Of a DNA stretch of 33,125 bases, positions 7,305 to 33,125 are shown piece by piece. The position numbers and the translations under genes were made by a program. Numbering within the stretch: the stretch's first letter is position 1; every line of letters begins with the position of its first letter. Source of the stretch: Desulfurococcales archaeon (GTDB lineage Archaea; Thermoproteota; Thermoprotei_A; Sulfolobales; NBVN01); NCBI GenBank assembly GCA_027002995.1, contig JALWZB010000151.1, positions 1 through 33,125 of the forward strand. The letters are read 5' to 3'. A model generated the notes under the pieces. It was given only the letters and a program-made list of their open reading frames with translations, was not told where the DNA came from and ran no database searches.

Positions 7305-8129
7305 TCACAGCGCAACTAGCTTTAGGGTCACGTAACGGGTCAGGTCCGTTAACGTCACGATACCCTTAATCGTGTTTTCCTCCATGATTAGCACGCCACG
7401 TATGTTCTTCTCCACCATTAACTCGGCCGCCTTACCGACGCCCTCAGAGGGACTCACCGCTGGGACAAGCGGGCGCATTATGTCGCCAACCCTAACGCGC
7501 TTCAGGAAGTCCTTATCGCCGCTGTCAGCGAACTCATTAATGATGTCTACGAGAGTGTTCACGAGCTCCGTCAGCGTGACTATCCCCACGACCTCACCGC
7601 TGGACGGGTTGACTACCGGTAAGGTTGAGAAGCCGTTATCTATCATGAGCCTCCTCACCATAATGAGTGAGTCGGTCTCCGAAACCCTAGTGACGGAGGA
7701 CGTCATTATCTCCGTTACTGGGGTGCTGTCCCCGCGAAGTAACTTAGCTATGTCCCACTTGCTGAAGAGCGCCACCACCTCCCCCTCCCTCTCTGCAGGG
7801 ACGCTGCTGATGTTGTTCTCAAGCATCACGCGGGCCGCCTTCGCCACGCTCGTGTCGTGCGGCAACTTAATCAACGGGTAACTCATGACCGACGAGACAT
7901 GCAGTGTCGATATAGGCATCCTCGCGCTCCTTGAGGAGCCGACCTTAGACACAATATCTTTTAGAGTAACCATGCCTTCAGCGCCGTGCTCACCGTAAAC
8001 CACTGCCCTATCAGCATCGTTTTTCCTCAGTACCTTAACTAGGTTGTAGAGGGAGTCATTCTTGTGCACACGCAGGAAGTCCTTAGCCCCGGCCTCCGAG
8101 ATCGTTATTAGGTCTACCTCCATGATCAC
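7305..8129 (-). CDS. Four-CBS-domain protein 1
   Basis: A 274-residue protein made almost entirely of CBS domains, small modules that pair into Bateman units and often bind adenine nucleotides or other ligands. Four repeats can be traced, at about 8-58, 72-122, 133-190 and 213-268. Recurring signs are DIM/VMSYP-type entries, NNISSVPA, GFSTLPVV and RGVLIMEE cores, and terminal GIVTLTDLT helices. There is no catalytic, membrane or DNA-binding domain. The GTG start overlaps the stop of the upstream CBS gene by 4 bases (GTGA), so translation is likely coupled. It is the last gene of the minus-strand series and converges on deoC. Ligand and partner are unknown. Confidence 0.85.
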   Translation of the reverse strand: MIMEVDLITISEAGAKDFLRVHKNDSLYNLVKVLRKNDADRAVVYGEHGAEGMVTLKDIVSKVGSSRSARMPISTLHVSSVMSYPLIKLPHDTSVAKAARVMLENNISSVPAEREGEVVALFSKWDIAKLLRGDSTPVTEIMTSSVTRVSETDSLIMVRRLMIDNGFSTLPVVNPSSGEVVGIVTLTELVNTLVDIINEFADSGDKDFLKRVRVGDIMRPLVPAVSPSEGVGKAAELMVEKNIRGVLIMEENTIKGIVTLTDLTRYVTLKLVAL

Positions 8130-8974
8130 ATCCTCCTGATGGCCTGAATGATGTGCTTCTTCGTGAGTATACCCACTAAGTAATCGTGCTCGTCAACAAC
8201 CGGCAGCGTCCCTATGCCGTTCTTCACCATGACGTCAGCAGCGCGCGCTAAGTCCTCATTCGGCCTGATCGTGATTGGGTCAGGGGTCATGATGTCCCCA
8301 GCTAACGGTAACGTGTATATGCGTATGACCCCCTCAAAACCCCTTCCAGTGATTCCGGAGCGCTTGTAATACTTGACCCTCTTGCGCGTCACGCTTTCCA
8401 TGTTAAGGAACATTATATCAGACTTCGTTATGACTCCCACAGGCTTATTGCCCTCAGTAACCACTACCTTGCCTAATCGCGTCTCGTTCATAAGGTCTAT
8501 GACGTAGTAAAGGTTATGCGTTTTCTGAACCGTCGGGACCTTCGGTTCCATGAAGTCATTCACCTTTGCCTTCCCATGATACCTCTCGGCGTAAGCCCTG
8601 ATCAGGTCGGCCTTAGTTATTATGCCTACGGGTTTCCGCGACTTCTCTATAACAAGTAATGACCCTATATTCCTCCGTAGCATTGCTTGGGCTGCTGCCT
8701 TAATGGTTCTGCCGGGCTGTATTGCGTATACTGGGTAAGACATGATTTCGTACGCCATGATGTTAGATAATGGCTTAATGTAGCGCTTCCTATTGTAGAC
8801 TATCCTGATGAAGTCGCTCTTGCTTATTATTCCGGAGACGTTCCCGTTGTTATCTGTAATTACTATCTTACCTATGCGGTGACGCATCATTAGGTTCCTT
8901 ATGTGGGCTAGGTTGTCGTTCTTATACGCAGTTATTACGGGGCTACTCATGTACGTAACTACGCGGGGCGGCAC
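8126..8974 (-). CDS. Four-CBS-domain protein 2
   Basis: A 282-residue protein with four CBS repeats, at about 8-56, 74-131, 142-192 and 228-281. Examples of the pattern are VSGIISKSD, SYPVYAIQPGRTIKAAA, IGSLLVIE, PVGIITKADL, VTEGNKPVGVITKSD and MTPDPITIRPNEDLARAADV. A basic linker between repeats 3 and 4 (TRKRVKYYKRSGITGRGFEG) is the only segment outside the repeats. There is no enzyme domain. It lies 14 bases after the next upstream CBS gene and overlaps the following one. The paralogues look related but diverged, so this is an old tandem expansion, not a recent duplication. Confidence 0.85.
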   Translation of the reverse strand: MPPRVVTYMSSPVITAYKNDNLAHIRNLMMRHRIGKIVITDNNGNVSGIISKSDFIRIVYNRKRYIKPLSNIMAYEIMSYPVYAIQPGRTIKAAAQAMLRRNIGSLLVIEKSRKPVGIITKADLIRAYAERYHGKAKVNDFMEPKVPTVQKTHNLYYVIDLMNETRLGKVVVTEGNKPVGVITKSDIMFLNMESVTRKRVKYYKRSGITGRGFEGVIRIYTLPLAGDIMTPDPITIRPNEDLARAADVMVKNGIGTLPVVDEHDYLVGILTKKHIIQAIRRM

Positions 8975-8988
8975 GATCTACACCCCCA

Positions 8989-9939
8989 TTAACCTGCTAC
9001 TGTGCCGTAGAGGATGTCCCTTGCCGTAATTATTCCTTTTAGCTCACCTCCCTGAATCACCAGCAGTGACCCCACCTTCTTCACGTTCATTATCGACGCA
9101 GCCTCACCTATGTCGGCCTCGGGGCTTATGGTCAGAACGTCCGTACGCATGACGTCAGAGACGGGAAGGTTGAGTAGTTCGTCTATGGTCTTCCGCTTCA
9201 GTATCGTGAATACCTTGTGGCTACCTATGAATCCTGTTACGTCCTTACATGACAGCATACCCGCTACGACGCCGTCCTTAACTACCGGTAATCTCCTCAC
9301 ACCGGTGTTTACCATGGTTTTCATCGCCTTACCGAGGCTCGTGTCCACCGTCACGTATATTACGTTCTCGGTCATCACATCCTTTACCAGGACGCCTGTT
9401 ACCTTGCCTGTTAGGTACTTTATTAGTGACCTCTCCGTTATGAGCCCAACGTACTTTCCGTCCTTGTCGGTTACGGGTACGGCCCCAATACCGTACTTTA
9501 TCATTACCTCGAGTAGTTGGGGTAAGGTCATGTCAGTCGAAACCGTTATTGGGTTATTCCTCATTACGTTGTCTACAGGCACGTCTAGCGCGTCGTAGAC
9601 GGAGTTTAGGTTGCGGCTGAGTATTATGTTGTAGCGAGGTCCGCCGCCCAGGTAGTCGATGATGTCCATCCCCGTAACCACACCACTTACGAGGTCCTTC
9701 GATGATAGTATGGGTATCATCCTGTATCCTGACTCGTACATGAGCTCAGTGACCTTTAGGATAGGTGTCTGCTCGGAGGCGACAGGCACGTCCCGTATTA
9801 TTACTGGTTGAAGTTCGGAGGGTTTCTTATGTATTCTGTCATTGAAGTTCGGGGTCCCGTCACTACGTAACCAGCGGTTTCTTTCACGTATTCTCCTATA
9901 TACGTATACCTTAACCAATTCTCTCAGACCTCCAAACAA
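8989..9939 (-). CDS. Four-CBS-domain protein 3 with basic N-terminal extension
   Basis: A 316-residue protein with four CBS repeats (about 45-97, 118-176, 185-236, 260-313). Characteristic segments are VMRNNPITVSTDMTLPQLLE, YVGLITERSLIKYL, VMTENVIYVTVDTSLGKAM and GELKGIITARDIL. It differs from its neighbours in a 40-residue N-terminal extension rich in arginine and lysine (VYVYRRIRERNRWLR) before the first repeat. That extension could bind nucleic acid or a partner, but no known motif is visible. It begins 2 bases after the upstream CBS gene ends, so the four genes are almost certainly one transcript. Confidence 0.85.
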   Translation of the reverse strand: MFGGLRELVKVYVYRRIRERNRWLRSDGTPNFNDRIHKKPSELQPVIIRDVPVASEQTPILKVTELMYESGYRMIPILSSKDLVSGVVTGMDIIDYLGGGPRYNIILSRNLNSVYDALDVPVDNVMRNNPITVSTDMTLPQLLEVMIKYGIGAVPVTDKDGKYVGLITERSLIKYLTGKVTGVLVKDVMTENVIYVTVDTSLGKAMKTMVNTGVRRLPVVKDGVVAGMLSCKDVTGFIGSHKVFTILKRKTIDELLNLPVSDVMRTDVLTISPEADIGEAASIMNVKKVGSLLVIQGGELKGIITARDILYGTVAG

Positions 9940-9941
9940 AC

Positions 9942-10733
9942 TTATCTAAGATAAGCTGAGCAAGCATCACCTCTATCTATGATCCCTACTAGCTGTCCCT
10001 TGTCATTAACTACTGGCACGCGTCCAATATCATTCCTAACCAGTATCATCGCCACCTCCGCAAGCTTAGTGTAGGGCTTCACAGTTATTGGTGGGGATCT
10101 CATGGCCTCACTGACCCTCGCTCCGTGTCTAGGGCCGGACTCGGACTCCAGCTCTATCCTAGTGTACCCTTTACGAAGCAGGTCGTGCTGCGTTATGATT
10201 CCTACGACGTACATGTCCTTACGCCTGACTACCGGGAACCCGCTGTAGTTAAGTCTAACCATTTTCCTCCAGAGCTTACTTATGAAGTCGTCCGGGTACA
10301 CGTATTCCACATCGGTAGTCATGATGTTCTCGGCCCTTAGGCTGTGCTTGGGGTGATCCCTGTTAAGCACCTCCTTAAGGTAGGACGTTAGTGACAGGAC
10401 ACCGACGTACCTATTTGAGGGTTCCTTAGTGACCGGGACGAACCACTCGTCAAGTTCTATCATCACCTTAAATGCCCTCTCACCGTCCTCGTCTGGTTTA
10501 AACGTGAGTCTAGGGGTGTCCATGACGTCCTTCACCAGGGCATTCGACCTAGTTGAGGAGAGGGCAAGTACCTCTTTCCGCTCAATTACCCCTACAAGTG
10601 TGCCCGACTCGTTCACCACGGGGAGCATGCGGAGGGCGAGGTCACGCATTAGTGCTCGGGCATGCGTGAGTAAGTCATTAGGGGAGATCTTAGGGTAGAA
10701 GCGATCTACAAAGGAGAGTACACGCAATTTCAC
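9942..10733 (-). CDS. Four-CBS-domain protein 4 (first of the CBS run)
   Basis: A 263-residue protein with four CBS repeats (about 10-58, 67-122, 136-190, 206-260). The pattern is shown by RMLPVVNESGTLVGVIERKEVL, VMDTPRLTFKPDE, IMTTDVEYVYPDD, SGFPVVRR and IGRVPVVNDKGQLVGIIDRGD. There are no other domains. It starts at GTG 10733, and a TATA-like sequence at 10759-10765 sits about 29 bp upstream. The CBS run may therefore have its own promoter even though the NFACT gene lies on the same strand 57 bases before. Confidence 0.85.
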   Translation of the reverse strand: MKLRVLSFVDRFYPKISPNDLLTHARALMRDLALRMLPVVNESGTLVGVIERKEVLALSSTRSNALVKDVMDTPRLTFKPDEDGERAFKVMIELDEWFVPVTKEPSNRYVGVLSLTSYLKEVLNRDHPKHSLRAENIMTTDVEYVYPDDFISKLWRKMVRLNYSGFPVVRRKDMYVVGIITQHDLLRKGYTRIELESESGPRHGARVSEAMRSPPITVKPYTKLAEVAMILVRNDIGRVPVVNDKGQLVGIIDRGDACSAYLR

Positions 10734-32203: not shown

Positions 32204-32698
32204 TCAGCCCCTGAAGTCAAGGAAGTCGGGGAGATCCTCTAAAGTTAATTCAGCTTTCCTAGCCTTCCTACTTCTGGCTCTCCTAGCACTTCGTTGAAGC
32301 TCTAATATGAACGAGTGCTTTCTCCTAGGCCTGCCTTTAGGGTTGTTAAGTAGTTGAGGAATCAGAAGTCTCTCAGTGAATACCTCCGCAATAGGGCATG
32401 CTTCTATGCACGCTTTGCAACCTATGCATCTTCCGGGATCCACTACAGGACGTCCTCCCTTTACTTTGATGGCGCTTGTTGGGCACCAGATTTCGCAACT
32501 ACCGCACGAGCAACATTTACTCCACCTAACTATAATCTTAAGTACATCAAAGGCAGTTTCTCTAGCATCGGGACCCTGAACCTCCACCTCATTAGGACGT
32601 ACTATGATAGTATTGCCTGACTTCCTAAGTGTGAGGGCACAATCATAGTTAGAGTCATTGCTACATACTTTCTCGGGCGGCGTGTCAGCTACGATGCT
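32204..32698 (-). CDS. Two-cluster 4Fe-4S ferredoxin segment, 3' part of an interrupted PAPS-reductase-like gene
   Basis: This is the same reading frame as the upstream PAPS-reductase-like gene, separated from it only by a TAG at 32699-32701. The first start codon after the TAG is GTG 32587. The 37 codons before that GTG are open and protein-like (NYDCALTLRKSGNTIIVRP). The ferredoxin part has CCSCGSCEIWCP and CIGCKACIEACP, enough for two 4Fe-4S clusters, then a basic region (RRKHSFILELQRSARRARSRK). If translated alone from 32587 it is 127 residues with no visible ribosome-binding site. Archaeal PAPS-reductase-like proteins often carry such a C-terminal domain, so the two parts were probably one protein. 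Confidence 0.75.
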   Translation of the reverse strand, partial: SIVADTPPEKVCSNDSNYDCALTLRKSGNTIIVRPNEVEVQGPDARETAFDVLKIIVRWSKCCSCGSCEIWCPTSAIKVKGGRPVVDPGRCIGCKACIEACPIAEVFTERLLIPQLLNNPKGRPRRKHSFILELQRSARRARSRKARKAELTLEDLPDFLDFRG

Positions 32699-33125
32699 CT
32701 ATTGCTCACGTATGCTATCCAGGCTTAGTTGCCCGTTAATTACCCTTATCCTATAATGATCCTCGCTTAGGGAGACAGGAGTTAGTGAGAGCCCGCTAAC
32801 CCTTTCGTAGAGTGATCGCCAGTCGCTGGGTTTCTTTATCCCTAACCAAGACTCTAGCCTTCTCCTTCCCTGAGACAGAGGGTTTAACCACCGCCATAAG
32901 TGATACCTTATCCAGAGGTCGCTCTCGTTGAGCCTCTCCTTCCACTCCAGTAGTACGTGCTCCCATCTCCGCCAGCACTCTGGGTAATTTCTCTTAACCG
33001 TGTAATACTCAGCAATGTTACCTGCCGGACACATGAAGCACCCAAGTCTATCGAATCCTCTAAAGTAGAGTTCGTTTACCGGGAGCCTCCTCCGTAATAT
33101 GTAAAACCACACTGTCAGCTGATCC
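32699..33125 (-). CDS. PAPS-reductase-like (PP-loop family) protein, partial
   Basis: The C-terminal part of a PP-loop ATP-pyrophosphatase-family protein similar to archaeal phosphoadenosine phosphosulfate reductases. The N-terminus, including the PP-loop, lies beyond the right edge. Visible are DQLTVWFYILRRRLPVNELYFRGFDRLGCFMCPAG, shortened here to its key points: LPVNELYFRGF, and the CFMCPA cysteine pair typical of the archaeal group. A tryptophan-rich helical region follows. GTG 33112 is internal, since the frame and its homology continue upstream to 33125. It ends at TAG 32699-32701, after which the same frame continues as a ferredoxin domain. The real substrate is unknown; sulfur transfer or RNA modification are possible. 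Confidence 0.8.
   Translation of the reverse strand, partial: DQLTVWFYILRRRLPVNELYFRGFDRLGCFMCPAGNIAEYYTVKRNYPECWRRWEHVLLEWKERLNESDLWIRYHLWRWLNPLSQGRRRLESWLGIKKPSDWRSLYERVSGLSLTPVSLSEDHYRIRVINGQLSLDSIREQ

Follow-up and report, generated by a model that had tools for sequence, protein, structure and literature searches.

An in-frame TAG in a PAPS-reductase/ferredoxin gene of a Desulfurococcales archaeon is probably a recent nonsense mutation

The window analysed here is the whole of contig C151 (33,125 bases) from the draft genome of a Desulfurococcales archaeon with a completeness of 97.8%. At one end of the window, the minus-strand frame 33124..32204 contains a TAG as its sole internal stop. 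Past this codon the frame is unshifted and stays open up to a terminal TGA (Table 1). With the curated cut-offs of Pfam passed, PAPS_reduct was assigned to the part 5' of the TAG and Fer4-type ferredoxin domains to the part 3' of it. A preliminary description of the window had claimed that the TAG splits a PAPS-reductase/ferredoxin fusion gene and that the frame runs on without a shift for 37 codons into a two-cluster ferredoxin. Both statements were borne out by the frame read-out and the Pfam matches. The earliest possible start after the TAG is a GTG, which is the 38th codon and has 37 codons before it.

The end of the contig cuts the gene, and the 5' part was found at the end of another contig of the same genome, C52. 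PF01507 was matched with its positions 143-174 on the window and with its positions 2-174 on C52. Joined, C52 and C151 yield a composite frame of 663 codons, which has one internal stop and, compared to the orthologues in the related genomes G001 and G004, no indels. PAPS_reduct is also present in another protein of this genome, encoded by an intact frame of 460 aa on contig C155. Elsewhere on the minus strand of the window (7305-10733), four consecutive genes (263-316 aa) apparently encode tandem CBS-domain proteins, as judged from their translations.

Table 1. Features of the interrupted gene; positions refer to the window unless contig C52 is named.
Feature	Position	Strand	Basis
PAPS-reductase part, 3' end (141 codons up to the stop)	32702..33125	-	PF01507 match, composite frame
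PAPS-reductase gene, 5' part	about C52:70700-71935		PF01507 match on contig C52
In-frame TAG; the three closest congeners have TGG (Trp)	32699..32701	-	Codon alignment and sequence
Open frame past the TAG, no shift	32207..32698	-	Sequence; 11 synonymous and 2 non-synonymous branch changes
First possible start after the TAG (GTG)	32585..32587	-	Sequence; GTG in the three congeners too
Two-cluster [4Fe-4S] ferredoxin domain, P0001 residues 203-244	32393..32518	-	Pfam Fer4 families; eight invariant Cys (alignment A1)
Terminal stop (TGA) of the full-length frame	32204..32206	-	Sequence
Exact 126-base overlap of the C151 end with the C52 end	33000..33125	-	Contig comparison

The genomes nearest to this one are MAGs of uncultured Desulfurococcales (records JALVVU01, WAOL01 and JAMOOZ01). 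Their orthologues, with identities of 96, 93 and 84% across the part in the window, are all uninterrupted and encode proteins of 671-677 aa in one whole frame. The preliminary description had suggested looking up the residue that homologues have at the TAG, and had considered that close relatives might encode two separate proteins at this place. In the codon alignment, all three congeners (G001, G004 and G002) were unsplit and carried TGG for Trp; the congener sequence surrounding the codon is LSLDSIREQWSIVADTPPEK. The stop is thus one substitution away from the sense codon common to the near relatives, a single change of G to A (TGG to TAG). A UAG at this site is not conserved among the orthologues, as the more distant ones have Trp, Ala, Arg, Leu and others at the position.

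The gene is present in 116 out of 214 genomes of the order at E <= 1e-40, with about 95 copies near full length according to a count by eye. These near-full-length orthologues are single frames except for the window gene and the one in genome G038, in agreement with the earlier claim that archaeal members have the two parts fused. Where full-length orthologues had been flagged for stops, those read out showed the terminal stop only, again save G038. The flags for internal stops in G117, G119, G113, G112 and a paralogue in G035 each turned out to be the terminal stop, while the flags of distant paralogues in G046, G055, G163 and G176 lie outside the read-out set. An apparent split in G019 is a contig break instead.

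Using G004 to polarise the changes on the branch leading to the window genome, we counted 18 synonymous and 5 non-synonymous ones ahead of the TAG and 11 and 2, respectively, past it, and the ratios were alike (Fisher p = 1). Under neutrality, two or fewer non-synonymous changes out of 13 have a probability of 3e-6 when 77.7% of the sites are taken as non-synonymous and of 7e-5 with 70%. The sequence past the TAG still shows purifying selection. This part therefore remained functional through most, or even all, of the period after the lineage parted from G001, and the stop is recent, or absent from the cells, or read through.

The intact G001 protein as modelled by AlphaFold2 (mean pLDDT 85) was used to place the stop in the structure. 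The equivalent of the TAG, Trp residue 500 of G001 (alignment offset), is found in a predicted helix (493-502). This helix belongs to a confidently modelled domain of residues ~471-541, which follows the reductase domain and precedes the ferredoxin (Cys 562-601). APS/PAPS reductases were matched by Foldseek with the reductase domain of the model. The stop therefore falls in a predicted helix of a modelled domain and not in a linker, and its site offers no obviously useful place for a split.

We consider a real, recent and perhaps segregating nonsense allele to be the best explanation, with a probability of about 0.6. In the orthologue of this population, TGG for Trp would have become TAG by one G-to-A substitution. 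Carriers of the allele would produce a protein of ~500 residues. According to the model, this product would keep the PAPS/APS-reductase-type domain and be left with half of the alpha/beta domain that comes next, but would have nothing of the two-cluster ferredoxin. The ferredoxin half would have no evident start of its own, and the stop would be recent and possibly segregate alongside an intact allele, in line with the difference between C52 and C151 at the contig end, which suggests two alleles of the gene in the sample. We infer that the base is real, that it is not an error of assembly or base calling, and that the product is truncated.

It is less likely, but should be taken seriously, that the TAG is wrong, introduced by base calling or assembly of the MAG close to a contig end at which the assembler met two strain variants, and that the cells carry TGG. 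The contig ends within the gene, 424 bases upstream of the TAG, where C52 and C151 differ. After the 126 identical bases, the first difference is at 32999 (G in the window, when read on the minus strand, and T in C52) and the second at 32982, which is the last base of C52. An overlap followed by divergence, similar to a branch in an assembly graph, is what an assembler would leave where two strain variants part. It suggests that two alleles of the reductase-ferredoxin gene were present in the source sample, and the gene was therefore probably polymorphic in the sampled population. An error is further in line with a lone substitution, a single transition, close to an apparent collapse of strain variants at the contig end, and with the remainder of the gene, which looks fully functional. 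The absence of decay past the TAG is predicted by an error and equally by readthrough. However, several supporting reads normally stand behind an assembled base, and the general error rate appears to be low. A comparison of this genome to G004 over 335 shared frames, with about 100,000 codons aligned, gave hardly any further internal stops; the other stop differences listed were located towards the ends of frames or within short frames, which looked spurious by eye. Given these few differences, the assembly is therefore not generally faulty, and a general fault as cause of the TAG was unsupported.

Readthrough of the UAG by a near-cognate or suppressor tRNA or in a programmed way, with some full-length protein being made, is very unlikely. 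The frame past the TAG is open and constrained, as would be expected, but at this site the three congeners all have Trp instead of a stop. The best match to PylS (TIGR02367) in the genome reached 34 bits against a cut-off of 178, the top match being the HisRS of the window and the weak matches being other class II synthetases, and PylB (TIGR03910) gave no match. No CUA anticodon was present among the 43 tRNAs found with RF00005, a set that misses tRNA-Trp, tRNA-Met and a few others and may also lack a rare suppressor. Across 629 kb of the genome, 98 out of 505 long frames are terminated by TAG. This upholds the earlier view that TAG is not generally recoded, for which six genes of the window (deoC, the NFACT gene, dcd, S25e, the Mut7-C gene and the zinc-ribbon gene) had been named, and all six end in TAG in the sequence. 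General recoding is rejected on the same count. Pyrrolysine is rejected on the sub-threshold PylS, the missing PylB and the TGG in relatives. Moreover, Sec and Pyl are the only cases of stop-codon readthrough demonstrated in archaea according to a review (PMC8211752). It is even more improbable that insertion of Trp or another residue without pyrrolysine yields two products from this one gene, a truncated reductase and a reductase-ferredoxin fusion. The preliminary description had listed readthrough or pyrrolysine, a recent nonsense mutation and a sequencing error without a choice among them. A recent nonsense mutation or an error is favoured here, while pyrrolysine is disfavoured on account of the Trp in near homologues, the lack of PylS above the cut-off and of PylB in the genome search and the use of TAG as an ordinary stop.

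A fission of the gene into two working subunits, with the ferredoxin half translated separately after the stop, is mechanistically plausible for a reductase and a ferredoxin and resembles the distant orthologue in G038, but it is hardly credible for the window gene, where the earliest start comes as late as 38 codons on, its GTG is old (it occurs as Val in three congeners), no Shine-Dalgarno sequence was seen ahead of it, the break lies within a predicted folded domain and no congener is split. A start codon with a ribosome-binding site close behind the TAG was not found in the window sequence. As a precedent for such a split, the PAPS reductase of Methanothermococcus thermolithotrophicus (8a8o), which has two subunits, was considered and rejected. 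The match of its beta chain goes no further than a ferredoxin, and the alpha subunit, which belongs to the flavoproteins of the fumarate reductase family, is not homologous.

The orthologue in G038, a genome from another family of the order, is interrupted in a different way. In this gene (L173, contig C8, about 45090), a TAA stands in frame between the reductase and ferredoxin parts. At this site its siblings L176, L199 and L200 have Ala (GCN), a codon from which TAA is reached by no fewer than two substitutions. In eighth place behind the TAA comes a derived GTG (Arg or Lys in the siblings), preceded by a GAGG at a spacing of 6 bases. The part past the TAA is about as conserved as in the intact sisters, with 67% amino acid identity between G038 and G108 compared to 70% between G057 and G108. 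From its sequence, the G038 gene is a plausible candidate for gene fission and looks more like one than the window gene. In L173, L176, L199 and L200 (G038, G057, G108 and G131), the C-terminal ferredoxin is without several of the eight cluster-binding Cys, and the frame is retained in the three intact members (G057, G108 and G131) despite this loss. The ferredoxin part is therefore changeable in this family.

A lone interrupted gene in a draft genome carries little weight by itself and should not be reported as recoding. The present gene can serve as a worked example of how such cases are settled, namely by the codon in relatives, selection past the stop, a survey of PylS and tRNAs and a check of the contig end. 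The same gene family holds a better case in G038 with its plausible fission into two subunits. The stop in the window, in an uncultured heat-loving archaeon, appears ordinary, and both readthrough and fission are unlikely for it.

Concerning known systems, the congener proteins and the composite read past the stop have PAPS_reduct followed by a two-cluster ferredoxin in one chain. The congeners, at about 660 residues, resemble the archaeal PAPS-reductase-like proteins of the PRK13795 type (NCBIfam NF010366-NF010369), in which an N-terminal region, PAPS_reduct and then a ferredoxin follow each other. The window gene differs from these by its interruption, and its partial pieces score under the full-length family cut-offs. 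Assimilatory APS and PAPS reductases of M. jannaschii are cited as characterised in PMC10322725, and the window gene is probably of the same general type, judged from the PF01507 and NCBIfam matches. Like the pyrrolysine UAG codons of methylamine methyltransferases, the UAG of the window gene stands in frame in an archaeal gene and is followed by an open frame. The window gene differs from those genes in the protein family, in the Trp of its relatives and in a genome with no PylS over the cut-off and no PylB. Compared to ordinary nonsense alleles and recent pseudogenes of prokaryotic genomes and MAGs, the window gene has no distinctive feature, although its base may be an error; it shares with them the single transition, the intact near relatives and a downstream sequence that shows no decay yet.
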